Positions 1,795 to 22,893 of a stretch of 64,000 bases of DNA are shown piece by piece. How positions within the stretch are numbered: position 1 is the stretch's first letter; every line of letters begins with the position of its first letter. The translations under genes were made by a program, and so were the position numbers. The notes beneath the pieces were generated by a model. The model made no database searches. It was not told the DNA's origin and was given only the letters and a program-made list of their open reading frames with translations. Source of the stretch: Thiobacillus sp. (lineage in GTDB: Bacteria; Pseudomonadota; Gammaproteobacteria; Burkholderiales; Thiobacillaceae); NCBI RefSeq assembly GCF_030696885.1, contig NZ_JAUYRI010000008.1, forward strand, positions 1-64,000, written 5' to 3'.

Positions 1795-1831
1795 TGCCCG
1801 CGCATGGTGCGGTCTGTTCAAGCGTGGTGCG
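1795..1831 (+). promoter_or_regulatory. tandem degenerate NtrC-like sites
   Basis: TGCCCG-N5-GGTGCG (1795-1811) and TGTTCA-N5-GGTGCG (1815-1831) each keep the 17-bp frame and the right half of the NtrC consensus TGCACC-N5-GGTGCA. Their spacing is exactly 20 bp, as in the much better pair in front of amt at 49162. They lie 75-110 bp upstream of the sigma54 element, the usual enhancer distance. The left half-sites are poor, so binding is inference. Confidence 0.45.
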
Positions 1832-1905
1832 TAGTCGAAGGCCGCATGACCGTTCGAATTTTGTCTCCCCAATCAAAACAAAGGCTTGGTCAGCTGCCAG
1901 CAAGC

Positions 1906-1921
1906 TGGAACATCGCTTGCT
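1906..1921 (+). promoter_or_regulatory. sigma54 (-24/-12) promoter of the permease-kinase gene
   Basis: TGGAACATCGCTTGCT matches the RpoN consensus TGGCACG-N4-TTGCW with GG and GC separated by exactly 10 bp. It points toward the hybrid kinase at 2063 and would give a leader of about 130 nt. Confidence 0.7.
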
Positions 1922-2004
1922 TAAAGGGTTCTGGGCATCCGATCGAACCGCACCGCATGTTGGGAGAAAACCATGGCCGGCCAGGACCGCGCAACCAGGC
2001 TCAC

Positions 2005-2052
2005 AGAACGCCGTTCTGGCTGCCGGCGCCCGTGCAGGTTCCCGGCACGGGC
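2005..2052 (+). promoter_or_regulatory. two hairpins in the leader of the hybrid kinase
   Basis: CAGAAC-GCC-GTTCTG (about 2005-2019) and GCCCGTGC (2028-2035) pairing with GCACGGGC (2045-2052) lie back to back immediately before the start codon at 2063. No T-run follows. They could affect translation initiation; no known riboswitch class is recognised. Confidence 0.35.
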
Positions 2053-2062
2053 CCGCTGACGA

Positions 2063-5000
2063 ATGGAACCGATCGCGCAGAACGCTCCGCCCAAGGCGCG
2101 CCAGCGCGTCGTCAAGGTCCGCCGCGACTACAACACCTGGGTCGCCAACGAAACCCTGGAAGATTACGCGCTGCGCTTTACGCCGCGCAGCTATCGCAAA
2201 TGGACCGAGTCGCGAGTGGCCAACACCGCCTTCGGGGCGGCGGCCTTCCTGGTGCTGGAAGCGGTGGGCGCGACGCTGCTGGTGAACTACGGCTTTCTCA
2301 ATGCGGCACTGGCCATTCTCGCCACCGGCCTGATCATCTTTCTGGTGGGCCTGCCGGTGAGCATCTACGCCGCCCGCTATGGGCTGGACATGGACTTGCT
2401 GACGCGCGGCGCGGGCTTCGGCTATCTCGGCTCCACCCTCACGTCTCTGATCTATGCGTCCTTCACCTTCATCTTCTTTGCGCTGGAGGCGGCCATCATG
2501 GCCTACGCTCTGGAGCTGGCGTTCGGCATTCCGCCGGCGTGGGGCTACCTGATCTGCGCGCTGGTGGTGATTCCCATGGTCACCCATGGCGTCACCGTCA
2601 TTAGCAGCCTGCAGACGATCTCCCAGCCCATCTGGCTGGTGATGCTGGTGCTGCCTTTTGTTTTTTTGCTGGCCAAGGAGCCGGGCGCGTTTGCCGGCAT
2701 CGTCGGCTATGCCGGCAACGGCACCGCCGGCTTCGACATCCATCTGTTCGGCGCGGCCATGGCGGTGGGGCTGGCGCTGATCACGCAGATGGGCGAGCAG
2801 GTGGACTACCTGCGTTTCATGCCGGAGCGCACCCCGGCCAATCGTCGCCGCTGGTGGGCCAGCGTGCTGGTGGGCGGCCCCGGCTGGGTGGTGCCGGGCG
2901 TGCTCAAGATGCTGGGTGGCGCGCTGCTGGCCTGGCTCGCCATCAGCCACCTGGTTCCGGTGGATCGGGCGGTGGACCCGAACCAGATGTACCTCATCGC
3001 CTACAGCTATGTGTTTCCCGATTATGGTTGGGCGGTCGCGGCCACTGTCCTGTTCGTGGTGATTTCCCAGCTCAAGATCAATGTCACCAACGCCTATGCC
3101 GGCTCGCTGGCCTGGTCCAATTTTTTCGCCCGCCTCACCCACAGCCATCCCGGCCGGGTGGTGTGGGTGGTGTTCAATATCCTGATCGCGCTGATGCTGA
3201 TGGAGATGGACGTGTTCCAGGCGCTGGGTCGGGTGCTGGGGCTGTATTCCAATGTGGCGGTGGCGTGGATGATGGTGGTGGTGGCCGACCTGGTGATCAA
3301 CAAGCCGCTCGGCCTGTCGCCGCCCGGCATCGAATTCCGCCGTGCCTATCTGTATGACATCAACCCGGTGGGGGTGGGCGCCATGGGCATCGCCTCGGGG
3401 CTATCGGTCGCAGCCTACGTCGGCCTGTTCGGCGACGCGGTGCAGCCCTTCGCCATCTTCATCGCACTGGGCGCGGCGCTGATCTGTTCGCCGCTGATCG
3501 CCTGGCTCACCGGCGGGCGCTACTACATCGCGCGCCACGACATGCCGGCACCCGGTGCCACGCCCGCGTCCACCCTCGGCTGCTGCATCTGCGGCAAGGC
3601 TTACGAAGTCGAGGACATGGCACGTTGCCCAGCCTATCAGGATCACATCTGTTCGCTCTGCTGCACGCTGGACGCGCGCTGCCACGATTTGTGCAAACCG
3701 CAGGCCCGCCTGGGTGAGCAGTGGGCCGCCTTGCTGGAACGCTGCCTGCCCAAGCGGGCGCAGCCTTATCTGGATGCCGGACTGGGCCATTACCTGCTCC
3801 TGATGGCGGGCGTGGTGCCCTTCCTGGTGTTGCTGGTGGGCCTGCTTTACTACCAGGAGGTGCTGGCGCTGGGCGAAGCGGCGGCCTCGCTGCTGCCCGC
3901 CCTGCAGCAGTCCTACCAGCGCGCGTTTGCCGCGTTGCTGCTGGTGTCCGGCGTCGTCGCCTGGTGGCTGGTGCTGACCCACAAGAGCCGCCAGGTGGCG
4001 CAGCAGGAATCCAATCGCCAGACACAGCTCCTGATGCAGGAAATCGATTCCCATCGCCGCACCGACGAACTGCTGCAGAACGCCAAGCAGGTGGCAGAGC
4101 ACGCCAACCAGGCCAAGAGTCGGTACATCACATCGATCAGCCACGAGTTGCGCACGCCGCTCAACAGCATCCTCGGTTATGCCCAGATTCTGGATCAGGA
4201 CGAGACGATCCCGCCCAACCGGCGCCAGGCGATCAACGTCATCCGCCGCAGCGGCGACCACCTGCTGTCGCTGATCGAGGGCACGCTGGATATCGCCCGC
4301 ATCGAAAGCGGCAAGCTCACGCTGAACGTGCGTCCGCTGGACTTTGCCGATTTCATCCAGCAGCTCGTCGGCATGTTCGAGCAGCAGGCGCGGCAGAAGG
4401 GGCTCGATTTTCACTATCTGCCGGAAGGGCCGCTGCCGGCCATGGTGCGCGCCGACGAAAAACGGCTGCGCCAGATCCTGCTCAACATCCTGGGCAACGC
4501 GGTCAAGTTCACCGTCAGCGGCAGCGTGACGCTGCGCCTGCGCCATCAGCGCGAAATGGCTTTTTTCTCCATCGAGGACACCGGCCCCGGCATCACGCCG
4601 GACGAAGTCGGCAACATCTTCGAGCCGTTCTCACGCGGCAGCGCGGCCCACGTCGGCGCAACGGGCGGCACCGGCCTGGGGCTGACCATCGCCCGCATGC
4701 TCACCGACCTGATGGGGGGCGAACTGAGCGTGGTGGGCAGGCCGGGGGAGGGGAGCCGGTTCGATGTGCGGCTCTTCCTGCCGCGGCTGCATGCGGAACA
4801 GCACGTTAAGGATCACCCCCTGGCGCAACGCATCGGCTACGTGGGCATGCGCCGCCGCATCCTGGTGGTCGACAACGAAGCGGTGGATCGGGAACTGCTG
4901 GTCAATATCCTGACCCCGCTGGGGTTCGAGGTGGCCCAGGTGTCCTCCGGGCATGATTGCCTGGCGGCCATTCCCGGTTTTTTGCCCCACGTGATTTTGA

Positions 5001-5482
5001 TGGACCTGGCGATGCCCGGCATGGACGGCTGGGAGACCTTGCGCCGGCTCCGCTCGGGCGGAATGACGGATGCCGAGATCGCCATCATCTCGGCCAACGC
5101 TTTCGAGAAAGGCGCGGACAACGATGCCGGCATCGCCGGCGAAGACTTCATCACCAAACCCTTCCGCGTCGACGAACTGCTGGACTGGCTCGGCAAGCGC
5201 CTGAACCTGGAATGGATCCGTGCGGACATCCCGCGCCAGTCCGCCCCGCCGCCCGGCCTTCCCAGCCAGCCCATGGTGCCGCCCGATGCGGAGCAGGTGA
5301 GCAATCTGCGGGAAATGATCGACTTGGGCTACATGCGCGGCATCCTGAAAAATCTCGACGAAATCGAACAGCTGGACCCGGTTCATGCCGAGTTCGTCCA
5401 GGTGATGCGGGTGCTGGCCCGGCGATTCCAGTTCGAGGCGATGAAAGAAATCCTGCGAAAGAGCACCGATGCCGGCAATTGA
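2063..5482 (+). CDS. NCS1 permease-histidine kinase-receiver hybrid sensor
   Basis: An 1139-residue inner-membrane sensor. Residues about 45-490 are a polytopic domain of NCS1 (purine/cytosine permease) type, including an intact-looking GAGFGYLGS segment. Residues about 505-550 are cysteine-rich (CCICG, CSLCC, CHDLC), possibly metal-binding. Two further membrane helices (about 573-637) precede a HisKA domain with SHELRTPLNS (His near 693), a HATPase_c domain with DTGPGI and GGTGLGLTI, and a receiver (about 930-1045) with phospho-acceptor Asp in VILMDLAMPGMDG. A helical C-terminus follows. The domain order recalls CbrA, where an SLC5 transporter is fused to a kinase. Ligand is unknown; a urea-, purine- or hydantoin-like nitrogen compound is inferred from the neighbouring urea genes and sigma54 promoter. 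The response regulator follows 4 bp downstream. Confidence 0.88.
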   Translation: MEPIAQNAPPKARQRVVKVRRDYNTWVANETLEDYALRFTPRSYRKWTESRVANTAFGAAAFLVLEAVGATLLVNYGFLNAALAILATGLIIFLVGLPVSIYAARYGLDMDLLTRGAGFGYLGSTLTSLIYASFTFIFFALEAAIMAYALELAFGIPPAWGYLICALVVIPMVTHGVTVISSLQTISQPIWLVMLVLPFVFLLAKEPGAFAGIVGYAGNGTAGFDIHLFGAAMAVGLALITQMGEQVDYLRFMPERTPANRRRWWASVLVGGPGWVVPGVLKMLGGALLAWLAISHLVPVDRAVDPNQMYLIAYSYVFPDYGWAVAATVLFVVISQLKINVTNAYAGSLAWSNFFARLTHSHPGRVVWVVFNILIALMLMEMDVFQALGRVLGLYSNVAVAWMMVVVADLVINKPLGLSPPGIEFRRAYLYDINPVGVGAMGIASGLSVAAYVGLFGDAVQPFAIFIALGAALICSPLIAWLTGGRYYIARHDMPAPGATPASTLGCCICGKAYEVEDMARCPAYQDHICSLCCTLDARCHDLCKPQARLGEQWAALLERCLPKRAQPYLDAGLGHYLLLMAGVVPFLVLLVGLLYYQEVLALGEAAASLLPALQQSYQRAFAALLLVSGVVAWWLVLTHKSRQVAQQESNRQTQLLMQEIDSHRRTDELLQNAKQVAEHANQAKSRYITSISHELRTPLNSILGYAQILDQDETIPPNRRQAINVIRRSGDHLLSLIEGTLDIARIESGKLTLNVRPLDFADFIQQLVGMFEQQARQKGLDFHYLPEGPLPAMVRADEKRLRQILLNILGNAVKFTVSGSVTLRLRHQREMAFFSIEDTGPGITPDEVGNIFEPFSRGSAAHVGATGGTGLGLTIARMLTDLMGGELSVVGRPGEGSRFDVRLFLPRLHAEQHVKDHPLAQRIGYVGMRRRILVVDNEAVDRELLVNILTPLGFEVAQVSSGHDCLAAIPGFLPHVILMDLAMPGMDGWETLRRLRSGGMTDAEIAIISANAFEKGADNDAGIAGEDFITKPFRVDELLDWLGKRLNLEWIRADIPRQSAPPPGLPSQPMVPPDAEQVSNLREMIDLGYMRGILKNLDEIEQLDPVHAEFVQVMRVLARRFQFEAMKEILRKSTDAGN

Positions 5483-5486
5483 CCGC

Positions 5487-6395
5487 ATGAACGAGGACGT
5501 CGTCCTGATCGTGGACGATGTGCCCGAGAACCTGTCCCTGCTCTACGACGCGCTGGACGAAGCCGGCTACGCGGTGCTGGTCGCCACCAACGGCGAAAGC
5601 GCGCTGCAGCGCGCGCGCCAGAGCCTGCCCGATGTCATTCTGCTCGACGCCGTCATGCCCGGCATGGATGGCTTCGAGGTGGCCCGCCACCTGAAGGCCG
5701 ACCCGGTCACCGAGCCGATTCCGATCATCTTCATGACCGGGCTGACCGACGCCGAGCACGTGGTGGCGGCGTTTGCCGCAGGCAGTTCCGACTACGTCAC
5801 CAAGCCCATCCGTCCCGCCGAAGTGCTGGCGCGCATTGCCGCCCACGTGCAGAGCGCCCGCCAGACGCAGCAGGCGCGCAGCGTGCTGGATGCCTACGGC
5901 CAGGCCTGCGTATCGATGCGGCCCACCGATGGCGCGCTGCTGTGGCAAACCCCGCTGGCGCGAACCCTTCTGCATAAATATGCCGGCGAGGATGAACACG
6001 GTCTGGTCGCGCGCATCCACGCATGGCTGCACACCGCGCTCACCAAACCCCAACCCCCCGCCCCCCTGGAAATCAGGGGAGACGAAGGCCGCATGGTCTG
6101 CGCCCTGCACGGGCGCACCGAAGAAGGCGAGTGCCTGCTGGTTCTACACGAGGAAAGCGACGTCGCCATCACAAAAGTCCTGGTGGATTCGTTCAAGCTC
6201 ACCCTGCGCGAAGCCGAAGTGCTGTACTGGGTGATCCACGGCAAGACCAACCGCGATATCGGCGACATCCTGGGCATCAGCCACCGCACCATCAACAAGC
6301 ACATGGACAATCTGTTCGAGAAGCTGGGTGTGGAAACCCGGACGGCCGCCGCGGCGCTGGCGATGCGGCGGCTGCAGATGCCGGTGCAGGTGTGA
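5487..6395 (+). CDS. LuxR-type response regulator paired with the hybrid kinase
   Basis: A cytosolic DNA-binding regulator of 302 residues. An N-terminal receiver has DD (LIVDDVPEN), the phospho-acceptor Asp near residue 54 (VILLDAVMPGMDG), a conserved Thr (FMTG) and Lys (YVTKPI). A middle linker follows, then a C-terminal GerE/LuxR helix-turn-helix (LTLREAEVLYWVIHGKTNRD ... SHRTINKHMDNLFEKLGV). Starting at 5487 leaves 4 bp after the kinase stop; the earlier ATG at 5469 would overlap the kinase by 14 bp. The two genes surely form one operon and a phosphorelay. The porin-urt-ure operon beyond the integron is the obvious candidate target, by context only. Confidence 0.88.
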   Translation: MNEDVVLIVDDVPENLSLLYDALDEAGYAVLVATNGESALQRARQSLPDVILLDAVMPGMDGFEVARHLKADPVTEPIPIIFMTGLTDAEHVVAAFAAGSSDYVTKPIRPAEVLARIAAHVQSARQTQQARSVLDAYGQACVSMRPTDGALLWQTPLARTLLHKYAGEDEHGLVARIHAWLHTALTKPQPPAPLEIRGDEGRMVCALHGRTEEGECLLVLHEESDVAITKVLVDSFKLTLREAEVLYWVIHGKTNRDIGDILGISHRTINKHMDNLFEKLGVETRTAAAALAMRRLQMPVQV

Positions 6396-6656
6396 TGAGA
6401 AAGCAATTAGCGGGGGCCTCAGGGCCATGAGAAATGGCAGATCAGTAATTTAGTTGAGCGGTAGAAACTCAGGCTGAGTCCGCAACCCATTCCGGTCATT
6501 CGGTGCGTCCGGGGCGAGCGTCCGGTGGTCGGCCAAAGCGGCCCGTCGTGACGCCCTCGCATTGACGTCAGCTTCATGGCCAAGAGCAGCCAGTGAACTT
6601 GGCCCTAAGCGACATGGAGGACGCTCTTCCTCCAGTCGCGACCAGGAGCGCAAGAT
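6396..6656. other. non-coding region between response regulator and integron integrase
   Basis: No supported gene. GGCC-containing inverted motifs occur around 6412-6430, and a stretch around 6490-6560 is rich in CCGGTC/GGTCGG words similar in flavour to the sequence beyond the last attC (9743-9840). A 67-residue leftward reading frame (6450-6653) has no recognisable feature. This is probably the degraded boundary of the integron. Confidence 0.4.
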
Positions 6657-7626
6657 TCAAAGGCTGTCGAACGGGCTGGCAACGTTCCGCGTCACCTCGA
6701 TCACATGCGTGTAGATCATCGTCGTCTGCAAACTGCGGTGACCAAGCAGCAGCTGTATCGTCCGGATGTCGGTACCAAATGCCAGCAAATGAGTCGCAAA
6801 GGAATGACGCAGGGTGTGCACGCTCGCATGCTTGTGGATCCCGGCTCGATCCCTGGCTTCCCGAAAGGCCCGCTGCACCGTCGAATCCGACGCATGCCAG
6901 CGTGCCAGCCTCCCGCTTTCACCCCACGGACGCAATACCGCAGACGGAAAGACGAACTGCCAGGCCAGCGAAGTCGACGCCGAGGGATATTTGCGGGCGA
7001 GCGCACTGGGTAGTGGAGCCAACCCGGCGCCATGCGACAAGTCCTGCTTGTGCAGCTCCGCCACCCGGAGCAACTGCTGCTTGAGCGGGGCATGCAGCCG
7101 TTCAGGCAAGAGTGTGGTGCGATCCTTGGCCCCTTTTCCGGAACGGACGTTCAGCACCCCACCCGAAAAATCGATGTCCTTGACCCGCAGCGTCATGCAT
7201 TCGTTGACGCGCAAGCCCGCGCCATACATCAGCTCCGCCATCAGTCTGACCACCCCGGTCATCTGCCCGAGGATGGCTTTCACCTCCTCGCGCGCGAGAA
7301 CCACCGGCACCCGGTGACGGCGTTGCACCCGCTTGAGCCCGGCCATCTCGCCCAATGGCTGCTCTAGCACGGAATCGTAGAGAAAGACCAGGGCGTTGAG
7401 CGCCTGGGTTTGCGAGGACGCAGAAAGATGCCGCTCACTCGCCAGATGGTTCAGGAAGGCCTCCACCTCTGGCCCGCCCATCGTGTTCGGGTGGCGCTTC
7501 CCGTGGAAATAGATGAACTTCCGGATCCAGAAACGGTAGCTGTCTTCGGTGCGGGGACTGAGATGCCGGCGGCGGCAGACGATGGAAACTTGATCAAGCA
7601 GGCGGGGGGGTGTCGGTTGACCCCAT
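6657..7626 (-). pseudogene. intI: integron integrase, frameshifted near its start
   Basis: Tyrosine site-specific recombinase that would join cassettes at attI. The long open frame (7481-6657) holds the catalytic residues: Arg in [10 protein letters not shown], Lys in [19 protein letters not shown], the His in LLGHRS and the Tyr in TMIYTHV. It also holds the extra segment typical of IntI between patches ([13 protein letters not shown] ... WQFVFPS). The SAM-like N-terminus continues upstream in the same frame ([20 protein letters not shown] ... [12 protein letters not shown]) with no start codon. A good start (ATG at 7626-7624 behind AGGAG) lies one frame off and ends in TGA after ten codons. 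Removing one C from the C7 tract (complement of 7604-7610) restores a 322-residue IntI of normal length. This could be a sequencing error, an inactivating mutation or a reversible homopolymer switch. Confidence 0.85.
7604..7610 (-). repeat. C7 homopolymer at the intI frameshift
   Basis: Seven consecutive C on the coding strand (G7 on the plus strand) within the first codons of intI. With six C the start codon and integrase frame join; with seven they do not. Confidence 0.8.
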
Positions 7627-7819
7627 GAGGTTCGCTCCTAGTGGTTGAGGGAAAAAATCAGGAGCATAATCCGGAAGCCCTGCGTCTCCTTTTGCATAAC
7701 GTAATAAAGAGACAGCCGGACAAACATCCATATAAGAATCAAGAAGATAGACTATGGAAACGCCTGTCTCTTTATTAAAAAACGTCCGGACCCATGGGTC
7801 TCTATATTAACTGTTAGCC
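7627..7819 (+). promoter_or_regulatory. attI / cassette-promoter region with 14-bp inverted repeat
   Basis: AT-rich spacer between divergent intI and the first cassette. TAATAAAGAGACAG (7692-7705) and CTGTCTCTTTATTA (7764-7777) are perfect inverted repeats 58 bp apart. GCCGGAC (7705-7711) and the palindrome GTCCGGAC (7784-7791) flank or adjoin them. The core-like site GTTAGCC (7813-7819) marks the likely recombination point just before the first cassette ATG at 7823. TATATTAA near 7802-7809 is a possible Pc -10 box; no clear -35 box or LexA box was found. Confidence 0.5.
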
Positions 7820-7822
7820 CCC

Positions 7823-8518: not shown

Positions 8519-8605
8519 GGCTAACCCCTCGGTCAAGTTCGTTCCGGCCTTCGGCCTCCACGGGACGCGCCGCAAGCGGCACGCCCCTTACCTCAAACGT
8601 TAGGT
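8519..8605 (+). other. attC site of cassette 1
   Basis: The 87-bp site starts with R''-like GGCTAAC (8519-8525) and ends with GTTAGGT (8599-8605), a perfect GTTRRRY core. The interior contains GGCCTTCGGCC and GCCGCAAGCGGC hairpins and a conserved TCAAG ... CTCAAAC flank. Recombination would occur between G8599 and T8600. Confidence 0.85.
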
Positions 8606-8608
8606 GGC

Positions 8609-9124: not shown

Positions 9125-9196
9125 CCCGGCGCTCAACCTCGCTCCCTTCGGCCGCTGGACGGCGCTAAAGCGCCGCCGGTTAGCTCTACGTTGGGC
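9119..9196 (+). other. attC site of cassette 2
   Basis: The 78-bp site has ACCTAAC (9119-9125), a perfect RYYYAAC, and GTTGGGC (9190-9196), a perfect GTTRRRY. The centre folds as GGCGCTAAAGCGCC. The crossover point is between G9190 and T9191. Confidence 0.87.
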
Positions 9197-9205
9197 ACCA
9201 CACCT

Positions 9206-9661: not shown

Positions 9662-9682
9662 TGAATAGCCACAGCCCATCAT

Positions 9683-10455: not shown

Positions 10456-10458
10456 CAC

Positions 10459-10677
10459 CCGTCCCGGACGCTTTCGCGTGTGTCATTCAACGCGGCAAAA
10501 GGTAGCACCTGCCCGGGGCATCGGTCACTCGGTCCACCTACGTAAGATGACTTATTTCATCCCCCCAGGCTGCTCGCTAACCTGAGCCCGTGTTCAAAGG
10601 CTTAGGGCGATCGGGCGGCCAGCGTGCAATCGGCCGCTTCGGTTTAGTGACGATAATTCAATCAAAGGGGATGGGAA
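10459..10677. promoter_or_regulatory. divergent intergenic region upstream of the porin-urea operon
   Basis: Contains the start region of the lipoprotein (leftward) and must hold the porin/urt promoter. GATAAT near 10652-10657 may be a -10 box, without a clear -35 box. A strong ribosome site (AAAGGGGATGG) precedes the porin ATG. No good NtrC or sigma54 site was found, unlike the sensor and amt genes. Confidence 0.35.
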
Positions 10678-11808
10678 ATGGCACTTGAAATCAAAAGAAA
10701 TCCGCTGATAGCGGCTGTGGCCGCAGCACTGATGCTGCCGGCTATGCCTGCCTATTCGGGCGGCACGATCACGTTTGGCGAGGACAAGTCGGTCAGCATC
10801 GGCCTCGGAATGCGCGGCAGCTTCAGCAGCGTGGAAGATGCAGCGCCCAACGGCACGTCCCGCTCGCAGAACTTCAGCCTGGACAGCGCCCGCATCTATC
10901 TGTCGGGCTCGTTGAACAAGTACATCAAGGGCATGCTCAACACAGAAAAGGACATCGCCGGCCAAGGTTTTCAGGCCATCGATGCCAACGTCCAGATCGC
11001 GATCACGCCCGGCGTGACGATCTGGGCCGGACGTTTTCTCTCTCCCAGCGACCGCGCCAACATGGCCGGCCCGTATTACTCGCTGGGCGGCGGCTACTGG
11101 TCGGGCATCGCTTCGCGCTACGGCTTCAATGGTGGCTACATCGGGCGTGACGACGGTGTGGCGGTGGTGGGCAGTGTGATGGACGGAAAGCTTGCCTATG
11201 CCTTCGGCGCTTTTGAGGGAAATACCACCTTCAAGATCGCGCCGGTGGCCACTTCAACCTCTACGCACAGGACTGGGTCAGATGGCCTGATGTATGCGGG
11301 TCGGCTGCAGATGGACTTCTGGGATGCGGAGCCGGGCTACTACGGCACCGGCAACTACCTGGGCGGCAAAGACATCCTGGCCATCGGCATCGCCGGACGC
11401 GCCCAGAAGAACGGCGCCTACTCGGCCCTGGCAACCGGAGACTACGCCTCCTACAGCATCGATTTCCTGCTGGAGAAAAAAGGCGTGGGGCCGGGCGCGC
11501 TGTCGATCGAGGCGGCGGGCTACGACTACGACACAGATGACGTGTACCTGATGGAACAGGGACGCGCGTATTCGGCCGGCGTCGGCTACATCTTCGACCA
11601 GAAGGTGGGCTGGGGGCAGGTGCAGCCGTTCGTGCGCTACCAGAAGTTCACGCCCGACAACAACGTCGACACCAAGAAGTACGACGTAGGCGTCAATTAC
11701 ATCATCGACGGCTACAACGCTCAGATCGGCGCTGTGTACTCGAACACGGAAGTGACCGGCGCAAGCGACGTGGATGCCTTCACCGTCGCCATGCAGTTCC
11801 AGTTCTGA
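10678..11808 (+). CDS. outer-membrane porin of the urea locus (FmdC-like)
   Basis: A 376-residue beta-barrel protein. A signal peptide (about 1-26, cleavage near PAYSGG) is followed by alternating polar/aromatic strands and a C-terminal Phe (AMQFQF), the usual outer-membrane targeting end. Position directly ahead of urtA parallels the fmdC porin of amide/urea transport loci in methylotrophs. The inferred job is passage of urea or short amides across the outer membrane. It is separated from urtA by 77 bp and is probably the first gene of the operon. Specificity cannot be read from the sequence. Confidence 0.75.
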   Translation: MALEIKRNPLIAAVAAALMLPAMPAYSGGTITFGEDKSVSIGLGMRGSFSSVEDAAPNGTSRSQNFSLDSARIYLSGSLNKYIKGMLNTEKDIAGQGFQAIDANVQIAITPGVTIWAGRFLSPSDRANMAGPYYSLGGGYWSGIASRYGFNGGYIGRDDGVAVVGSVMDGKLAYAFGAFEGNTTFKIAPVATSTSTHRTGSDGLMYAGRLQMDFWDAEPGYYGTGNYLGGKDILAIGIAGRAQKNGAYSALATGDYASYSIDFLLEKKGVGPGALSIEAAGYDYDTDDVYLMEQGRAYSAGVGYIFDQKVGWGQVQPFVRYQKFTPDNNVDTKKYDVGVNYIIDGYNAQIGAVYSNTEVTGASDVDAFTVAMQFQF

Positions 11809-11885: not shown

Positions 11886-13157
11886 ATGCAAACCCGTCGT
11901 AATTTTCTGAAAATGACTGTGCTCTCCAGCCTGCTGACCTTGTCAGGCCTTGCCAGCTTCTCCGTGCATGCCGCCGAAACCATCAAGGTCGGCATCCTGC
12001 ATTCGCTGTCCGGCACCATGGCCATTTCCGAAACCGCGCTGAAGGAAACCGCGCTGATGACGATCGCCCAGATCAACAAGTCGGGCGGTGTCATGGGCAA
12101 GATGCTGGAGCCGGTGGTGGTCGACCCGGCTTCCAACTGGCCGCTGTTCGCCGAGCGCTCGCGTCAGTTGCTGTCCAAGGACAAGGTCGATGTGGTGTTC
12201 GGTTGCTGGACCTCGGTGTCGCGTAAATCGGTGCTGCCGGTGTTCAAGGAGCTGAACGGCCTGCTGTTCTACCCGGTGCAGTACGAGGGCGAGGAACTGG
12301 AGAAGAACGTGTTCTACACCGGCGCGGCACCGAACCAGCAGGCGATCCCGGCGGTGGAATACCTGATGAGCAAGGACGGTGGCTCCGCCAAGCGTTTTGT
12401 GCTGCTGGGCACCGACTACGTCTACCCGCGCACCACCAACAAGATCCTGCGCGCCTTCCTGCACAGCAAGGGCATCAAGGACGCGGACATCATGGAGGAG
12501 TACACGCCGTTCGGTCATAGCGACTATCAGACCATCATCGCCAAGATCAAGAAGTTTGCCGGCGAAGGCAAGAAGACCGCTGTGGTGTCCACCATCAACG
12601 GCGACTCCAACGTGCCGTTCTACAAGGAGCTGGGCAACGCCGGCCTGAAGGCGACCGACGTGCCGGTGGTGGCGTTCTCGGTGGGCGAGGAGGAACTGCG
12701 CGGCGTCGACACCAAGCCGCTGATGGGCCACCTGGCCGCCTGGAACTACTTCCAGTCGATCAAGAACCCGACCAACACCGCGTTCATCAAGATGTACCGC
12801 GACTGGGCCAAGTCGCAAAAGCTGCCCAACGCTGACACTGTGGTGACCAACGACCCGATGGAAGCCACCTACATCGGCATCCACATGTGGAAGCAGGCGG
12901 TCGAAAAAGCCAAGTCCACCGACGTCGACAAGGTCATCGCCGCAATGGCCGGCCAGACCTTCAAGGCGCCGTCCGGCTTCGTCGTCAAGATGGACGAGAA
13001 GAACCACCACCTGCACAAGCCGGTGTTCATTGGCGAAGTGAAGGGTGACGGTCAGTTCAACGTGGTGTGGAAAACCAAGGGCCCGATCCGTGCCCAGCCG
13101 TGGAGCCCCTACATCCCCGGCAACGACAAGAAGAAGGACGTGCCCGACAGCAAGTAA
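11886..13157 (+). CDS. urtA: urea ABC transporter substrate-binding protein
   Basis: Periplasmic receptor that delivers urea to UrtBC. It has 423 residues of the type I periplasmic-binding fold used by branched-chain amino acid and amide receptors (KVGILHSLSGTMAISE at the mature start). Conserved UrtA stretches are VFGCWTSVSRKSVLPVFKE, LFYPVQYEGEE and NDPMEATYIG. The leader has a twin-arginine motif, RRNFLKM, followed by a hydrophobic core, so export through the Tat system (tatABC at 47522) is likely. A clear ribosome site (CAGGAG) precedes the ATG. It is first of five consecutive urt genes. Confidence 0.95.
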   Translation: MQTRRNFLKMTVLSSLLTLSGLASFSVHAAETIKVGILHSLSGTMAISETALKETALMTIAQINKSGGVMGKMLEPVVVDPASNWPLFAERSRQLLSKDKVDVVFGCWTSVSRKSVLPVFKELNGLLFYPVQYEGEELEKNVFYTGAAPNQQAIPAVEYLMSKDGGSAKRFVLLGTDYVYPRTTNKILRAFLHSKGIKDADIMEEYTPFGHSDYQTIIAKIKKFAGEGKKTAVVSTINGDSNVPFYKELGNAGLKATDVPVVAFSVGEEELRGVDTKPLMGHLAAWNYFQSIKNPTNTAFIKMYRDWAKSQKLPNADTVVTNDPMEATYIGIHMWKQAVEKAKSTDVDKVIAAMAGQTFKAPSGFVVKMDEKNHHLHKPVFIGEVKGDGQFNVVWKTKGPIRAQPWSPYIPGNDKKKDVPDSK

Positions 13158-13185: not shown

Positions 13186-13231
13186 CGTCATTCCGCTGGG
13201 CGCGAAACGGTTCGCACCCAGCGGAATGACG
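13186..13231. repeat. REP-like palindromic hairpin between urtA and urtB
   Basis: Two 21-nt arms (13186-13206 and 13211-13231) pair at 20 of 21 positions around a 4-nt ACGG loop. The ends CGTCATTCC ... GGAATGACG resemble widely dispersed intergenic palindromes of betaproteobacteria. It could stabilise the urtA message and lower expression of the distal genes. Confidence 0.75.
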
Positions 13232-13246
13232 GATACCGGCCCCACC

Positions 13247-14833
13247 ATGAAACGCCTCCTGCTCACGCTCCTGCTGTTGTTGCTGCCCGCGTCGAACGCC
13301 TTTGCCGCGCTCGACCCTGCGCTAGTACGTCAACTCGCGGCGGAAGAGTCCGACGACAAGATCGCCGCCATCCGGCAGCTCGGCGCCAGCGCCAGCGCGG
13401 ACGCCGCCAAAGTGCTGAAGGCGATGGCCGACGACGAACTGCTGGTTGCCGACGAGGCCGTATTCATTTTCGACGGTGAGCAGGCGGTCGATGCCGCCAC
13501 CGGCGCCGTCATCGACCCGGTTCCAGAAACCTACGAATCCATCACCGTCAACAACCGCCTGCGCTCCGAGCTCGCCAACGCGCTGGCCGCGCTGAAGCTG
13601 TACGACCCCGACCGCGCCGTGCGCCTGGCGGCGGCAACGGAACTGCAGAGCAACGCCGGTATCGGCATGGCGCCCATCCTGGCCGCTGCGATGGCGAAGG
13701 AAACCGACGCGGGAATTCAGGCCTTGCTGAAGCAGGCGCACGCGCTGGCCAACCTTGAAAACCCCGATGCGGCGGCCCGGCTGGCGGCGGTTGAATTGCT
13801 GGCGGACAGCGCGAGTCCGGCGACTCGTGGACTGCTTCTGCCGCTGCTGGATGAAGCCAATGAACCGGATGCCGCGGTGCGCGAAGCCGCCGCGCAGGCG
13901 GTCGATGCGATCGAGGCGCGCCTGGCCTTTGGCGAAATCCTCGGTCAGATATTCAGCGGCCTCTCGCTCAGCAGCATCCTGCTGCTGGCCGCGCTGGGGC
14001 TGGCCATCACCTATGGCGTGATGGGCGTCATCAACATGGCGCACGGCGAGTTGCTGATGATCGGCGCCTATGCCACGTTTTTCACGCAAACCCTGTTTCG
14101 CGCGTATTTCCCGGACTATATCGACTGGTATGTGCTGGCAGCCATCCCGGCCGCTTTCCTCGCCGCCGCGCTAGTGGGCATGCTGCTGGAGCGCACGGTG
14201 ATCCGCCGCTTGTATGGCCGGCCACTGGAAACCCTGCTCGCCACCTGGGGCCTGAGCCTGATTCTGATTCAGGCAGCGCGCATGCTGTTTGGTGCGCAGA
14301 ACGTGGAAGTCGCCAATCCGGTCTGGATGTCGGGCGGCGTCGAGATCATGGCGGGGCTGGTGCTGCCGTGGAACCGCATCGTCATCATCGGCTTCACGCT
14401 GTTCGTGTTGGCGCTGGTGTGGGTACTGATGCAGAAGACGCGGCTCGGCCTGTTCGTGCGCGCCATCACCCAGAACCGGCCGATGGCGGGCTGCGTCGGC
14501 GTGCCGACCGGGCGCGTGGACACGATGGCGTTCGGCCTCGGCGCTGGCATCGCGGGCCTCGGCGGCGTGGCGCTGTCGCAGATCGCCAACGTCGGCCCCG
14601 ACATGGGGCAGGGCTACATCGTCGATTCCTTCCTGGTGGTGGTGCTGGGCGGCGTTGGGCAACTGGCCGGCGCGGTGTGGGCGGCGCTGGGCCTGGGCGT
14701 TGTGACCAAATTCCTCGAAGGCTGGTCCGGTGCGGTGATCGCCAAGATCGTGGTGCTGGTCATCGTCATCGTCTTCATCCAGAAACGCCCGCAGGGCCTG
14801 TTTGCCCTCAAGGGCCGCTTCGTGGACAACTGA
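13247..14833 (+). CDS. urtB: urea ABC transporter permease UrtB
   Basis: An inner-membrane permease of the LivH type, 528 residues. A signal-like N-terminus (MKRLLLTLLLLLLPASNAFA) leads into a periplasmic alpha-helical, HEAT-like domain of about 200 residues typical of UrtB but absent from LivH. The membrane domain follows, with GVMGVINMAHGELLMIGAY and a VVLGGVGQLAGAVWAALGLG region. The start at 13247 was chosen because it begins the signal sequence; earlier in-frame ATGs would run through the palindrome and into urtA. It ends one base before urtC. Confidence 0.93.
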   Translation: MKRLLLTLLLLLLPASNAFAALDPALVRQLAAEESDDKIAAIRQLGASASADAAKVLKAMADDELLVADEAVFIFDGEQAVDAATGAVIDPVPETYESITVNNRLRSELANALAALKLYDPDRAVRLAAATELQSNAGIGMAPILAAAMAKETDAGIQALLKQAHALANLENPDAAARLAAVELLADSASPATRGLLLPLLDEANEPDAAVREAAAQAVDAIEARLAFGEILGQIFSGLSLSSILLLAALGLAITYGVMGVINMAHGELLMIGAYATFFTQTLFRAYFPDYIDWYVLAAIPAAFLAAALVGMLLERTVIRRLYGRPLETLLATWGLSLILIQAARMLFGAQNVEVANPVWMSGGVEIMAGLVLPWNRIVIIGFTLFVLALVWVLMQKTRLGLFVRAITQNRPMAGCVGVPTGRVDTMAFGLGAGIAGLGGVALSQIANVGPDMGQGYIVDSFLVVVLGGVGQLAGAVWAALGLGVVTKFLEGWSGAVIAKIVVLVIVIVFIQKRPQGLFALKGRFVDN

Positions 14834-14834
14834 C

Positions 14835-15937
14835 ATGCGCACCCCGTTCACCATCCGCGTCCTCGCCGCCATGCCCCGCTCGGGCTGGATCGCCATGGGC
14901 CTCTTCGCCGCCATTACGCTGGTGCTGATGCCGGCGCTGCATCTGTTCGTGCCCGAGGGTCATCCCTTCCATGTCTCCAACTACGTGATCACCCTCGGCG
15001 GCAAGATCATGTGCTACGCCATCGTCGCGGTGGCGATGGACCTGGTCTGGGGCTATGCCGGCATCCTGTCGCTGGGGCACGGCATGTTCTTCGCGCTGGG
15101 CGGCTACGCCTTCGGCATGTACCTGATGCGCGGCATCGGAACCGACGGCTCCTACCAGTCGCATCTGCCGGACTTCATGGTGTTTCTGGACTGGAAGGAA
15201 CTGCCCTGGTACTGGGCCGGCTCCGATTCCTTTGTGCTGACGCTGATTCTGGTGCTGGCGGTGCCGTCGCTGGTGGCGTTCGTGTTCGGCTATTTTGCTT
15301 TCCGCTCGCGCATCAAGGGCGTGTACTTCGCCATCATCACCCAGGCGCTCACCTTCGCCGCGATGCTGCTGTTCTTCCGCAACGAAACCGGCTTCGGCGG
15401 CAACAACGGTTTCACTGACTTCAAGCGCATCCTGGGCTACGACATCACCTCGCCGGAAATGCGGGCGACGCTGTTCGCGCTGTCCGCGCTGGCGCTGATG
15501 CTGGCGCTGCTGGCGGGACGCTACCTGGCCACGTCGAAGTTCGGCCGGGTGCTGGCGGCGATCCGCGATGCCGAGTCGCGCGTCATGTTCATCGGTTACA
15601 ACCCGCTGCACTACAAGCTGTTCATCTGGACCTTTTCCGCGATGCTGTGCGGCATCGCGGGTGCACTCTACGTGCCGCAGGTGGGCATCATCAACCCCGG
15701 TGAAATGTCGCCGGCCAATTCCATCGAAATCGCCATCTGGGTGGCGGTGGGCGGGCGCGGCACCCTGATCGGCCCGATCATCGGCGCCGGCCTGGTCAAC
15801 GGCTTCAAGAGCTTCTTCACCGTCGCCTTCCCGGAGTACTGGCTGTTCTTCCTCGGGGCGCTGTTCGTCGGGGTGACGCTGTGGCTGCCCGAGGGCGTGG
15901 TGGGCTTGTGGAAACGCATTAGGGCGCGGGTCGCGGC

Positions 15938-15941
<4 letters not shown>
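14835..15941 (+). CDS. urtC: urea ABC transporter permease UrtC
   Basis: The second membrane subunit, LivM type, 368 residues with about ten hydrophobic segments. Family signatures include DLVWGYAGILSLGHGMFFALGGY, GRVLAAIRDAESR and WVAVGGRGTLIGPIIGAGLVN. It starts two bases after the urtB stop and overlaps urtD by 4 bp (ATGA), so it is translationally coupled. UrtB and UrtC form the urea channel. Confidence 0.94.
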
Positions 15942-16774
<833 letters not shown>

Positions 16775-16777
16775 ACC

Positions 16778-17470
16778 ATGCTGCGTGTGGAGAACCTCAA
16801 CCAGTATTACGGCGGCAGCCACATCCTGCGCGACCTTTCCTTCGAGGCGCCCACCGGCCAGGTCACCTGTCTGCTCGGCCGCAACGGTGTCGGCAAGACC
16901 ACGCTGCTGAAGTGCCTGATGGGACTGGTGCCGGCGAAGACCGGCAGCATGACCTTCGACGGCAGGGACATCACCAACGCGGCCTCCCACGCCCGGGTGA
17001 AAGCCGGCATCGGCTACGTGCCGCAGGGGCGCGAGATCTTTCCGCGCCTGACCGTGGAAGAAAACCTGCGCATGGGGCTGGCGACGAAGCCCGGCGGCAC
17101 GCCGATCCCGGAACGCATCTATGAAATGTTCCCGGTGCTGAAAGCGATGCTGAAGCGGCGCGGCGGCGACCTCTCCGGCGGCCAGCAGCAGCAACTGGCG
17201 ATTGGCCGGGCGCTCGCCTTCGGGCCGAAGCTGCTGATCCTGGACGAGCCCACGGAAGGCATCCAGCCGTCCATCATCAAGGACATCGAACGCGCCATCC
17301 GCATGCTGGCCGAAGAAGGCAGCATGGCCATCCTGCTGGTCGAGCAGTATTACGATTTCGCCCGCTCGCTCGCCGACCAGTACCTGCTGATGGAACGCGG
17401 CGAATTCATCAAGCGCGGCGCCGGCGCCGACATGGACCAGGATGGCGTGCGCGAATTGCTCTCCGTATGA
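16778..17470 (+). CDS. urtE: urea ABC transporter ATPase UrtE
   Basis: LivF-type ATPase, 230 residues. It has Walker A GRNGVGKTT, signature LSGGQQQQLAIGRAL, Walker B LLILDEPTEGIQP and switch region LLVEQYYDFA. The EGIQPSII wording is typical of UrtE. It closes the urt set and is followed 7 bp later by ureD, so transport and hydrolysis genes are likely one transcript. Confidence 0.94.
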   Translation: MLRVENLNQYYGGSHILRDLSFEAPTGQVTCLLGRNGVGKTTLLKCLMGLVPAKTGSMTFDGRDITNAASHARVKAGIGYVPQGREIFPRLTVEENLRMGLATKPGGTPIPERIYEMFPVLKAMLKRRGGDLSGGQQQQLAIGRALAFGPKLLILDEPTEGIQPSIIKDIERAIRMLAEEGSMAILLVEQYYDFARSLADQYLLMERGEFIKRGAGADMDQDGVRELLSV

Positions 17471-17477
17471 TGGGGCG

Positions 17478-18323
17478 ATGGACCTCGCCGAACCGCTTTC
17501 CTCGACCTGGCATGCGCGCCTGTCCCTGGGTTTCCAGCGGCGCGAGGCGGGCACCATTCTCGTCCGCCGCGAACACGTGGGCCCGCTGCGCATCCAGAAG
17601 GCGCTCTATCCGGAAGGCGAGGCCGTCTGCCATGCCATCGTGCTGCATCCGCCGTCCGGCATTGCCGGCGGCGACGATCTGGAAATCGACGTGACGGTCG
17701 GACCGGGTGCCCATGCGCTTTTGACCACGCCGGGTGCCGGCAAGTGGTATCGCAGCGCCGGCGCCTGGGCCAGCCAGCGCCTGGGTTTCACGGTGGAAGC
17801 GCAGGGCGTGCTGGAATGGCTGCCGCAGGAAACCATCGTGTTCGACGCGGCGCACGCAAGCCTGCGCAGCACTGTCGACCTCGCCGCCGATGCGCGCTTC
17901 ATCGGCATGGACGTGCTGTGCCTGGGGCGTCGCGCGTCGGGAGAACAATTCACCGCCGGATCCGTGCATCTCGATACCCGGATCCGGCGGGCCGGGCGGC
18001 CCGTCTGGCTGGAACGGGGTCGGCTGGAGGGCGGGGGCGACCTGCTGAACGCGGCGGCCGGGCTGGCCGGATTCAGCGTCAGCGGGACCTTCCTCGCGGT
18101 GGCGCCCGGCATCGAGCCGGGATTGCTTACGACGTGTCGGGACATTCCCGTGCACGAGGCCGGCGCCCGGCATGGGATTACCGCCTTGCCGGACATCCTG
18201 GTGGCACGTTACCTGGGGCATTCGTCGGAGGCGGCGCGCCAGTGGTTGACTGCCGTGTGGCAGACGCTGTGCCCGGCGCTGATCGGACGCAAGGCACACA
18301 CGCCGCGCATCTGGAACACCTGA
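17478..18323 (+). CDS. ureD: urease accessory protein UreD
   Basis: Nickel-insertion chaperone that binds apo-urease with UreF and UreG. It has 281 residues. Family features include the [14 protein letters not shown] and [11 protein letters not shown] segments and a C-terminal [14 protein letters not shown] end. ATG at 17478 was chosen because it fits the family N-terminus ([14 protein letters not shown]); an upstream in-frame ATG at 17442 would overlap urtE. First gene of the urease set, 10 bp ahead of ureA. Confidence 0.92.
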
Positions 18324-18333
18324 AAGAATCGAT

Positions 18334-18636
18334 ATGGAACTGACCCCGCGCGAAAAAGACAAGCTGCTCATCTTCACCGCCGCGCTGCTGGCGGAACGCC
18401 GCCGCGCGCGCGGCCTCAAGCTCAACTATCCCGAGGCGGTGGCTTTCATCACCGCCGGCATTCTGGAAGGTGCGCGCGACGGCAAGAGCGTGGCCGAACT
18501 GATGAGCTACGGCACCACACTGCTGCAGCGCGACGAGGTCATGGAGGGCGTGCCCGAGATGATCCCGGATATCCAGGTCGAAGCCACCTTCCCCGACGGC
18601 ACCAAGCTGGTGACCGTCCATCACCCGATCATCTAG
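18334..18636 (+). CDS. ureA: urease subunit gamma
   Basis: A 100-residue structural subunit of the urease trimer. The start [20 protein letters not shown] and the ALISA-region equivalents ([30 protein letters not shown]) are family hallmarks. Full length. It is followed by an unusual 155-bp gap before ureB. Confidence 0.96.
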
Positions 18637-18642
18637 AAACGT

Positions 18643-18795
18643 ATGAAAAATCTACTGCGCGTGTCGGATCGAGGTTTGTGCGGTGCTCGCTATTCTCATA
18701 TACAACGTCGTACATTCCGGTCACTGCGCTCCGGACACACCTCGCTGCGACCCGCTCGCTACGATTTCTTCACACGTTTTGAGGAGCCAGCATGA
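18643..18795 (+). CDS. possible 50-residue ORF between ureA and ureB
   Basis: An open frame of 50 codons begins 6 bp after ureA and its TGA overlaps the ureB start (ATGA). The product is Arg-rich with no recognised domain. The end of the frame carries GAGGAG, which serves as the ureB ribosome site, so reading it could simply couple ureA and ureB translation. There is no good ribosome site of its own. It may be spurious. Confidence 0.3.
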
Positions 18796-19097
18796 TCCCA
18801 GGCGAAATGCAGATCGAACCCGGCGAAATCGAACTCAACGCCGGCCACCCCACGCTTACGCTGGTGGTGGCCAACACCGGCGACCGGCCGGTTCAGGTCG
18901 GCTCTCACTATCACTTCTTCGAGGTCAATGACGCTCTGGCGTTTGACCGGGAAGCGGCGCGCGGCATGCGCCTGGACATCGCCGCCGGCACCGCAGTGCG
19001 TTTCGAGCCGGGCCAGACCCGCACGGTGCAACTGGTGGCCTACGCCGGCGCGCGCAAGGTCTATGGGTTTCAGGGCCGGATCATGGGTTCGCTTTAA
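18792..19097 (+). CDS. ureB: urease subunit beta
   Basis: A 101-residue structural subunit. Signatures are [30 protein letters not shown] and [21 protein letters not shown]. Full length, with ribosome site GAGGAG 6 bp before the ATG. With UreA and UreC it forms the (alpha-beta-gamma)3 enzyme. Confidence 0.96.
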
Positions 19098-19350: not shown

Positions 19351-21102
<1,752 letters not shown>

Positions 21103-21104
21103 CT

Positions 21105-21617
21105 ATGATCGTCATCGAACAACGCGCTCCAGCAAATACACCGGCAACCGAACGCCTGGTGCTGCCCTTCGACCTGCGCTGCAAGTGCCGGCTGCGTACA
21201 CAGCTCGCGAGCGGCGAAGAAGCCGGCCTGTTCCTGGAACGCGGCAGCGTACTGCGCGCCGGCGATCGCCTGCTTGCCAACGACGGCCGCATCGTCGAGG
21301 TGGCGGCCGCGCCCGAGGCGGTGATGGAGGTGCGCAGCGACGACGCCCTGCTGCTGGCGCGCGCCGCCTATCACCTGGGCAACCGCCACGTGGCGGTGGA
21401 ACTGCAGCCGGGGCTGGTGCGCTTTGCGCGCGACCCTGTGCTGGGCGAGATGGTGCGCGGGCTGGGGCTGGCGGTTGTCGAAAACGAAGCGCCCTTCGAC
21501 CCCGAGAGCGGCGCCTATGGCGGCCACGGCGGCCATGCCCATCCACACGGCCACAGCGCCGACGGCGAAGGGCGCGGCCCGCGCATCCACGACATGCTGT
21601 TGCGGGGCGGCCGATGA
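21105..21617 (+). CDS. ureE: urease nickel metallochaperone UreE
   Basis: A 170-residue protein with a peptide-binding N-terminal domain, a metal-binding C-terminal domain (GNRHVAVEL, containing the conserved His) and a His-rich tail (GGHGGHAHPHGH) suited to binding nickel. The ATG lies 2 bp after the ureC stop. The end overlaps ureF by 4 bp. Delivers nickel to the UreDFG-apourease complex. Confidence 0.92.
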   Translation: MIVIEQRAPANTPATERLVLPFDLRCKCRLRTQLASGEEAGLFLERGSVLRAGDRLLANDGRIVEVAAAPEAVMEVRSDDALLLARAAYHLGNRHVAVELQPGLVRFARDPVLGEMVRGLGLAVVENEAPFDPESGAYGGHGGHAHPHGHSADGEGRGPRIHDMLLRGGR

Positions 21618-22282
21618 ACCCGGCCCTGATCCGGTTGCTGCAACTGACCAGCCCGGCCTTGCCGGTCGGCGCCTACTCCTATTCGCAGGGTCTGGAATGG
21701 GTGGTGGAAACCGGCGCGGTGAAGAACGAGGCGACCGCGCTGGCCTGGATCGGCGACTGCCTGGAATTCGGCATTGCACGTTTCGAAGCGGTGTATCTGG
21801 CCCACATGCTGGCCGCCTGGACGCAGGACGACGCGGCCCGGCTCGCGCAACTGGATGACGAATTCACGGCCAGCCGCGAGACCGCCGAACTGCGCGCCGA
21901 GACGGCACAAATGGGGTATTCGCTGGCCCGCCTGCTCACCGATCTGGGCGGCTTTCCGGCCGCATCGCTGGCGGCATTCAAGCAGCCGAGTTTTCCGCTG
22001 GCCTGGAGCTGCGCGGCCGCGGCCTGGCGCATTCCCGCGCAGGATGCCGTCGCCGGCTATCTGTGGGCCTGGGCGGAGAACCAGGTGATGGCAGCAGTGA
22101 AGGCCATCCCGCTCGGACAAACCGCCGGCCAGCGCATGCTGCTGGTCCTGGGGCAGCGCATCCCGGCGCTGGCGGACGCCGCCGCAGCGGCCGACCTCGA
22201 AACCACCTGCAACTACTTGCCAGCTTTTGCCATTGCATCAAGCTGTCACGAAACCCAATACACGAGATTGTTCAGATCATGA
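21614..22282 (+). CDS. ureF: urease accessory protein UreF
   Basis: A 222-residue all-helical chaperone that links UreD to UreG. Family markers are [21 protein letters not shown] near the N-terminus, [10 protein letters not shown] and the C-terminal [14 protein letters not shown]. It overlaps ureE and ureG by 4 bp each, indicating coupled translation. Confidence 0.93.
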
Positions 22283-22893
22283 CCCACCGCTCGCAACCGC
22301 TGCGTGTCGGCATCGGCGGCCCCGTCGGCTCCGGCAAGACCGCGCTGACCCTGGCCCTGTGCAAGGCGCTGCGCGAGCGCTACAACATCGCCGTCGTCAC
22401 CAACGACATCTACACGGAGGAGGACGCGCAGTTCCTGGTGAATAACGAGGCCTTGGCCCCCGAGCGCATCATCGGCGTGGAAACCGGCGGCTGCCCGCAC
22501 ACCGCTATCCGCGAGGACGCCAGCATCAACCTGGAAGCGGTGGACCGGCTCAACAAGCGCTTCCCCGGCCTCGACGTGATCTTCGTCGAAAGCGGCGGCG
22601 ACAACCTGGCCGCCACCTTCAGCCCCGAATTGTCCGACCTGACGATTTACGTCATCGACGTGGCTGCCGGCGAAAAGATACCGCGCAAGGGCGGCCCCGG
22701 CATCACCAAGTCCGATCTGCTGGTCATCAACAAGATCGATCTGGCGCCCATGGTCGGCGCTTCGCTGGACGTGATGGACCGCGACACCAAGAAAATGCGT
22801 GGCGAACGACCGTTTGTCTTCTCGAACCTCAAGACCGGGCAAGGCCTGGCGGACATCATCGCGTTTGTCGAGCGGGAGGGCATGCTGGGCTAG
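22279..22893 (+). CDS. ureG: urease accessory GTPase UreG
   Basis: SIMIBI-class GTPase whose hydrolysis drives nickel insertion. 204 residues with P-loop [10 protein letters not shown], the metal-binding CPH motif in [15 protein letters not shown], switch region [15 protein letters not shown] and NKID. Full length. Last gene of the urease operon. Confidence 0.95.

Follow-up and report, generated by a model that had tools for sequence, protein, structure and literature searches.

A single long reading frame in a 64,000-nucleotide stretch of Thiobacillus sp. (contig NZ_JAUYRI010000008.1, positions 1 to 64,000 of the forward strand; hereafter the window) fuses a permease to a hybrid sensor histidine kinase, and a LuxR-type response regulator follows it. 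The question raised by this locus is what such a protein senses and which genes the pair controls. Urea and formamide are common nitrogen sources, and the analysis indicates that the kinase is probably a transporter-derived receptor (a "transceptor") for urea or small amides which, with its regulator, activates the porin-urtABCDE-ure operon. On a broader scale, we lean towards the view that it belongs to a large undescribed receptor family for urea and short-chain amides, which arose by one fusion of a permease with a zinc-ribbon-like tail to a kinase and has since shuttled, along with its own operator, between urease and formamidase operons, and that the stand-alone relatives of the permease are an unrecognised NCS1-type class of urea/amide transporters.

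Architecture of the kinase-regulator pair

The original prediction, made from the sequence of the window, described one frame with a permease, a Cys-rich segment, helices, HisKA, HATPase and receiver plus a LuxR-type regulator. This was confirmed by the open reading frames, Pfam and a fold search (Table 1); position 1795, at which the predicted interval began, lies outside the kinase frame. With HisKA, HATPase_c and receiver domains and the conserved His and Asp, the protein is a hybrid histidine kinase, and His694, Asn812 and Asp981 are each found in 99% of 176 aligned sequences. Residues 573-666 probably form two membrane helices followed by the start of a coiled coil. The regulator, with REC and a GerE helix-turn-helix (Pfam), is of the NarL/FixJ (LuxR) type. 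It may start at the ATG at 5469, which overlaps the kinase stop, or at an alternative ATG at 5487, 4 bp past it. Its long REC-GerE linker (residues ~130-240) gave no Pfam match over the cut-off and is possibly a PAS-like domain.

Gene neighbourhood across genomes

The pair had been predicted to be tied to nitrogen genes, and its homologues, far from never lying near such genes, mostly do so in a phylum sample of 398 genomes. This sample holds 57 kinase genes in 52 genomes, all with frames of at least 894 aa, and 55 of the 57 are within 10 kb of fmdA/amiE, urtA-like or urease genes; the fractions are lower in the order, class and closest-homologue samples discussed below. Distances in the order, class and phylum samples were counted from the permease-domain match and not from the gene end. 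One of the 57 is the window itself, with urtA at 7.9 kb; among the other 56, whose neighbours were read, 54 are linked and the two without a link (L186 and L162; L and G numbers denote loci and genomes) are both at contig ends. The regulator is directly downstream of the kinase in 54 of these 56 loci. An fmdA/amiE cluster with a divergent-type urtA-like gene accompanies 35 of the 56 kinases, and others have true urtA and/or urease genes nearby. NCBIfam identified FmdA and AmiE in L104 (798 and 675 bits). The labels "urea-type", "amide-type" and "fmdD-type" (urtA-like protein with less than 55% identity to the UrtA of the window) are our own, and G529 was left unclassed. Genes were called with a codon-score gene caller (in a raw six-frame clustering, antisense reading frames overwhelmed the neighbours).

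In the order sample (250 genomes), of the 43 genomes with the kinase 41 have urtA-like genes and 40 have ureC, whereas among the 207 without it the counts are 59 and 60 (Fisher p ~5e-17 and ~2e-15, respectively, kinship being ignored in both tests).

Some loci deserve a separate mention. The kinase is divergent from urtABCDE-formamidase in L213, and L110 has a row made up of the kinase, an amide-type operon that includes fmdA, a porin and true urt genes. Four deep-branching kinases (L126, L127, L116 and L117), with two frames of ~1400 aa, have no urea or amide neighbours in the stretches at hand, and a different role is possible for them. Klebsiella accounts for 340 of the 520 plasmid records carrying the N-terminal part of the kinase, and some records annotate the kinase as ArcB.

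A predicted operator that follows the kinase

Gapped palindromes were counted in the spacers between the kinase and the divergent operon. TACG-N8-CGTA is present in 37 of 46 kinase-urtA divergent spacers, where shuffles predict 0.2; of the other kinase-operon spacers, 5 of 8 have it once duplicates are removed (8 of 12 before). A 28-bp matrix was built from 51 exact sites, with the spacers of L104, L199 and L200 counted twice. Among 80 held-out loci, which contributed no training sites, 26 of the 27 with the upstream region of urtA (or the porin) available carry a site of at least 13 bits, and 26 of the 30 sites reaching this score in the 1.40 Mb scanned lie within 250 bp upstream of urtA or the porin. 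In the window, the match at 10533-10560 is the only site of at least 5 bits; its core ends 123 bp before the porin start, and L009, with the same porin-urtA order, has a nearly identical operator at the same distance.

The operator depends on the presence of the kinase across genomes. It was found upstream of urtA in none of 20 kinase-less genomes (taken from the 45 with a strong urtA) and in 9 of 20 kinase genomes (taken from 23, excluding the window, G371 and G589; one urtA upstream, that of L250, covers only 388 bp). The nine (G107, G414, G457, G459, G476, G557, G569, G570 and G571) were classed as urea-type from their context, tree position or identity to the window, and of the eleven others ten were classed as amide-type, the remaining one being G529. 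In G107, G569, G476, G570, G414 and G457, six of these nine, over 50 kb separate the kinase from urtA or the two lie on separate contigs, so the operator accounts for several kinases counted as unlinked. From the co-occurrence of operator and kinase, the regulator of the pair is the presumed binder of the predicted operator. Control of porin-urt-ure by the pair, as originally proposed, is very probable given the sole operator of the window upstream of the porin and its dependence on the kinase elsewhere.

The TA of a -10 box (mostly TAATCT) stands at one fixed distance from the operator in 35 of 36 aligned sites (35 distinct sequences, two sites being identical). This puts the operator centre ~43 bp upstream of the inferred transcription start, with no recognisable -35 box, which is by promoter rules the place of a class II activator. 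Alternatively, the regulator could be a repressor relieved by the signal, since a site overlapping the -35 position could block the polymerase. However, the fixed distance to the -10 box, the class II position and the lack of a visible -35 consensus argue against it, and repression seems unlikely. Activation is thus preferred for the direction of control.

Sigma-54-like elements were found in the 18 ureA-kinase spacers of relatives, toward the kinase in 14 and toward ureA in 17, where shuffles gave 0.08 and 0.07, respectively. These 18 spacers, with their back-to-back elements, come from the L027-L080 group, L102, L138, L178, L179, L182, L184 and L215. The first motif of the ureA group was considered as a regulator site and ruled out, as it is the sigma-54 -24/-12 element by the consensus that we assume. 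The window, unlike these spacers, has only a weak candidate (Table 1). Elements of this type are typical of nitrogen-limitation control and, because they face both ways between ureA and the kinase, the pair appears embedded in it. There may be two tiers, in which nitrogen limitation permits the system and an amide or urea triggers it. The same elements would also suit an internal nitrogen-status sensor (of ammonium, glutamine or pH) that is merely built on a permease. Nevertheless, a general sensor should not switch between formamidase and urease operons from lineage to lineage, and urtA upstreams carry the operator only with a urea-type kinase, so this alternative is left with a slim chance compared with a receptor for urea or small amides.

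The permease domain and its possible ligand

The structure model and the fold search place the permease domain closest to solved NCS1 structures, with the SLC5 structures SGLT2 and CHT1 ranking below. The fold is of the NCS1/LeuT type, and the Pfam matches of the kinase include neither an SLC5 (sodium:solute symporter) domain nor the Amt family. This route through the fold was taken because sequence searches for a solved permease relative (only two chance-level matches in one search) and a search of the window's own genome with PF02133 gave nothing useful. The domain is NCS1-type by fold and a divergent branch, not a formal member of PF02133.

The 122 aligned kinases and stand-alone permeases of the urea and amide groups all have E142, Q242, E245, Q246, D248, N340, N343 and Y345. 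The simplest reading of this alignment is that the urea and amide types share one conserved small-amide site, and formamide and short-chain amides likely join urea in the ligand class. Guanidine was also considered as a ligand and set aside; guanidine genes were outside the neighbourhood searches.

The original prediction listed urea, purines or hydantoins as ligands. Urea is favoured by the gene linkage, but the same does not hold for purines and hydantoins. A nucleobase, hydantoin or allantoin, as in characterised NCS1 proteins, would make the urea genes downstream steps of the pathway. The NCS1 fold is in line with this, as are the database names of many stand-alone relatives ("allantoin permease", "cytosine permease" or "purine-cytosine permease family protein"). 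Against it, the formamidase and aliphatic amidase found as neighbours are not known as steps of purine breakdown, and no purine, hydantoin or allantoin gene was noticed in the contexts read, in which only urea and amide genes were searched systematically. Moreover, among the residues that we take to be the nucleobase contacts of CodB, Gln105 and Phe204 are replaced by Thr135 and Leu239, and Trp108 corresponds to Phe138. The underlying hhalign alignment is weak: shallow profiles against CodB gave 6-7% probability, a 319-sequence profile against CodB plus AllW gave 45% (E 2.2e-4, 350 columns) and a global run against CodB alone aligned nothing, so the CodB alignment was used only for these three correspondences. 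Overall, a ligand of this kind is very doubtful, and urea or a small amide is preferred.

Stand-alone permeases and the origin of the fusion

In a tree of 176 permease domains (without 23 "short" rows and the mis-framed row L123), 160 kinases and 16 stand-alone permeases fall on opposite sides of the midpoint root with a support of 99, and operon type (amide versus urea, stand-alones included) requires nine changes. Because of this split and these changes, it looks as if the fusion occurred once and the partner operons were swapped repeatedly.

Stand-alone permeases were examined at 16 places: in urease operons (7), by fmdA/amiE (7), by a kinase alone (L214) or unlinked (L194). Those in urease operons (L118, L198, L202-L204, L192 and L197) include Klebsiella pneumoniae and Acinetobacter records. 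The plasmid stand-alones inspected were 6 of 521 records, picked among the top rows for spread, plus L214. Identity to the kinase permease domain is 46% for L118 and 53% for L104. The stand-alones of urease operons may represent an additional class of bacterial urea permease, and proteins named "allantoin" or "cytosine permease" beside urease genes, those of Klebsiella and Acinetobacter included, could be permeases for urea or amides.

A single locus can combine a sensor and a transporter form of this fold: L104, L199, L200 and L201 have, divergent from the kinase, a stand-alone permease gene that leads fmdA-amiE. These loci bear on another possibility, namely that the permease domain of the kinase is ligand-free and reads the state of UrtABCDE or of a stand-alone permease, as BceAB-S does. 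This principle is known (PMC11109136; for this and the other articles cited, we refer to portions of the text), and the kinase is divergent from an urtA-like operon in 37 of the 56 sampled loci. On the other hand, the putative substrate-core residues are equally invariant in kinases and stand-alone permeases, and these four loci, where the stretches at hand contain the stand-alone permease but lack urt genes, have the same sensor type. We therefore consider such flux sensing unlikely and retain direct sensing of urea or small amides.

The cysteine module

All eight cysteines are invariant in a diverse set of 59 sequences whose identity goes down to 30%. When 183 kinases and 136 stand-alone permeases are aligned, the latter keep C507, C510, C530 and C533 in 134-136 of 136 cases, C522 in 47, and C534 and C540 in only 5 each. 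Because the stand-alones keep only part of the set, the module looks like a zinc-ribbon-like tail which the permease already had and which was extended in the kinase. It probably binds metal. Foldseek with residues 481-756 matched kinase helices of GacS/ERS1, and a RING finger appeared only at E 1.7.

L147 (7498-10155) carries the same permease-Cys module on a different, receiver-less kinase near fmdA, followed by a receiver-kinase protein and then fmdA. Since another kinase type bears it, the permease-Cys module itself looks like the input. L149, also near fmdA, has a frame length similar to that of L147 (899 versus 894 aa, shorter than usual).

Proposed mechanism and points against it

Starting from the computed architecture, fold, gene linkage and operator, we infer a mechanism as follows. 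Urea in the Thiobacillus genome, or another small amide H2N-C(=O)-X in relatives, would bind the NCS1-type permease domain directly at its substrate site. The resulting change of conformation could pass through the eight-Cys module and the following helices to the HisKA/HATPase core, and the phosphate would then reach the LuxR-type regulator directly or via the fused receiver. The phosphorylated regulator would bind TACG-N8-CGTA beside the -10 box and activate transcription of porin-urtABCDE-ure.

Several results weigh against this proposal. Nine of the 46 kinase-urtA spacers lack the exact palindrome, and one held-out locus (L044) has no operator. Linkage is weaker in the order sample, with 36 of 44 kinase genes within 15 kb of an urtA-like gene or ureC, and G427 is the sole one of its 43 kinase genomes without both. 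The class sample (369 genomes) has 19 kinase genes, of which 11 show a link within 10 kb, the unlinked ones being L103, L108, L113 (5.7-kb contig), L114, L115, L116, L117 and one of two in L109 (10,018 bp). The 80 closest homologues comprise 36 linked, 23 cut short and 21 unlinked despite full flanks. PF02133 has no match over the cut-off in the window kinase or in 53 homologues, and of two stand-alone relatives L118 reaches the cut-off (31.8 bits against 23.5), L104 giving no match. No residue of the permease tells urea-linked and amide-linked kinases apart in at least four of seven groups, so the sequence does not say which amide is sensed. The operator of the window falls short of a perfect site, with 13.8 bits where the training sites have a median of 24 and a minimum of 15.6, and an equal score was reached somewhere in 10 of 200 simulated 64-kb windows; its position and conservation therefore carry the argument, not its score. 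The own genome (3.0 Mb) has a single match, the window site, to a pattern including this operator variant, and the pattern was written knowing that site.

Features of the window

Table 1. Coordinates of the kinase-regulator pair, the predicted control elements and the presumed target operon
Feature	Position	Strand	Basis
Weak candidate sigma-54 promoter upstream of kinase, TGGAACATCGCTTGCT	1906..1921	+	6/7 scored positions, GG-N10-GC spacing; consensus assumed by us
Permease-fused hybrid sensor histidine kinase, 1139 aa	2063..5482	+	ORF, Pfam kinase/receiver domains, fold search
NCS1-type permease domain, ~residues 31-487	2153..3523	+	Fold search
Eight-cysteine module, C507-C544, C-x2-C-x11-C-x7-C-x2-CC-x5-C-x3-C	3581..3694	+	
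Helical region 3' of Cys module, residues 573-666	3779..4060	+	Helix 574-665 in structure model
HisKA, residues 684-750, phospho-acceptor His694	4112..4312	+	Pfam
HATPase_c, residues 798-906	4454..4780	+	Pfam
C-terminal receiver, residues 933-1041, Asp981	4859..5185	+	Pfam
LuxR/NarL-type response regulator, REC + GerE, 308 aa	5469..6395	+	Pfam
Predicted operator of response regulator, TACGTAAGATGACTTAT	10539..10555	+	28-bp matrix match 10533-10560, 13.8 bits
-10 box TAACCT, conserved distance from operator	10578..10583	+	TA at offset in 35/36 aligned sites, window included
Porin, first gene of presumed target operon	10678..11808	+	NCBIfam porin_ExtI, 97.6 bits, below cut-off 150
UrtA, urea ABC transporter binding protein	11886..13157	+	TIGR03407, 587 bits, cut-off 492.75
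urtB, urtC, urtD, urtE	13226..17470	+	Gene calls; homologues annotated urtB-E in L213
ureD, ureA, ureB	17478..19097	+	Gene calls; urease-annotated homologues in L192, L197 and (ureA, ureB) L215
ureC, urease alpha subunit	19351..21102	+	TIGR01792, 959 bits, cut-off 680
ureE, ureF, ureG	21159..22893	+	Gene calls; names by reading of sequences

Between ureB and ureC (19111-19329) there is a HupE/UreJ-like ORF of 72 aa (20.7 bits, below the cut-off of 23), perhaps a remnant. The region 6657-10458, now between the regulator and the porin operon, is an insertion that we take to be integron-like. It carries a minus-strand tyrosine integrase (Phage_integrase, 124.6 bits), whose N-terminal SAM-like domain is matched only from position 45, four ORFs without a Pfam match and presumed attC-like repeats at 8579 and 9716. 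Rfam gave no match within 5400-11000.

Comparison with known systems

No published account of an NCS1-type kinase with this linker, ligand class and operator was found in the open literature, most subscription journals and bioRxiv being outside the search. In Dechloromonas aromatica, Table 4 of PMC2907700 lists a kinase (VIMSS583663) and a receiver (583664) between DraG and UrtA, as annotation lines to which the part of the article considered assigns no function. Their sizes (1131 and 308 aa) fit the window pair, the likeness being one of size and position alone. A urtABCDE-fmdA-amiE cluster of Pseudomonas has been proposed for formamide uptake (PMC13209695); histidine kinases are not mentioned in the portion considered of that article, nor are histidine kinases or two-component systems in that of PMC10781810, and no dedicated urea or formamide receptor is named in those of the three. 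Bacterial urea uptake systems were counted as three in 2010 (ABC, Yut and UreI; PMC2868824).

CbrA and CrbS (SLC5-STAC kinases) are similar in that a whole transporter is fused to a histidine kinase and tied to the use of the substrate, and the SLC5 domain of CbrA takes up histidine (PMC13022988; see also PMC7096432). However, the transporter of the window is NCS1-like and not SLC5, and the eight-Cys module, in the place of the STAC linker, and the helices stand where CbrA has STAC and PAS. The kinase linker gave no Pfam match over the cut-off, the presence of a STAC model in the library being unconfirmed. The window kinase also differs from CbrA in its fused receiver, in a LuxR-type regulator instead of the sigma-54-dependent CbrB, and in its urea/amide operons instead of hut.

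Ks-Amt5 of Kuenenia is another nitrogen-compound transporter recruited as a kinase sensor, which is reported to bind ammonium without translocating it (PMC5764959); unlike the window kinase, it has an Amt domain and ammonium as its ligand. The stand-alone NCS1-like permeases of urease and formamidase operons share the permease domain and four of the eight cysteines, but they lack the kinase, end in a four-Cys tail and are candidate transporters. Mhp1 and CodB share the fold, and R..FG..GS-type and D(F/Y).RF segments are shared with CodB in the profile alignment. Nevertheless, identity is 14-17% in the structural alignment, two presumed nucleobase contacts are replaced, and Mhp1 and CodB have neither Cys module nor kinase.

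The family offers a testable receptor, regulator and predicted operator on one operon in many Pseudomonadota. Transporter-fused kinases are already known from CbrA and Ks-Amt5, and the NCS1 type with such a linker, probable ligand class and predicted operator appears to be new.

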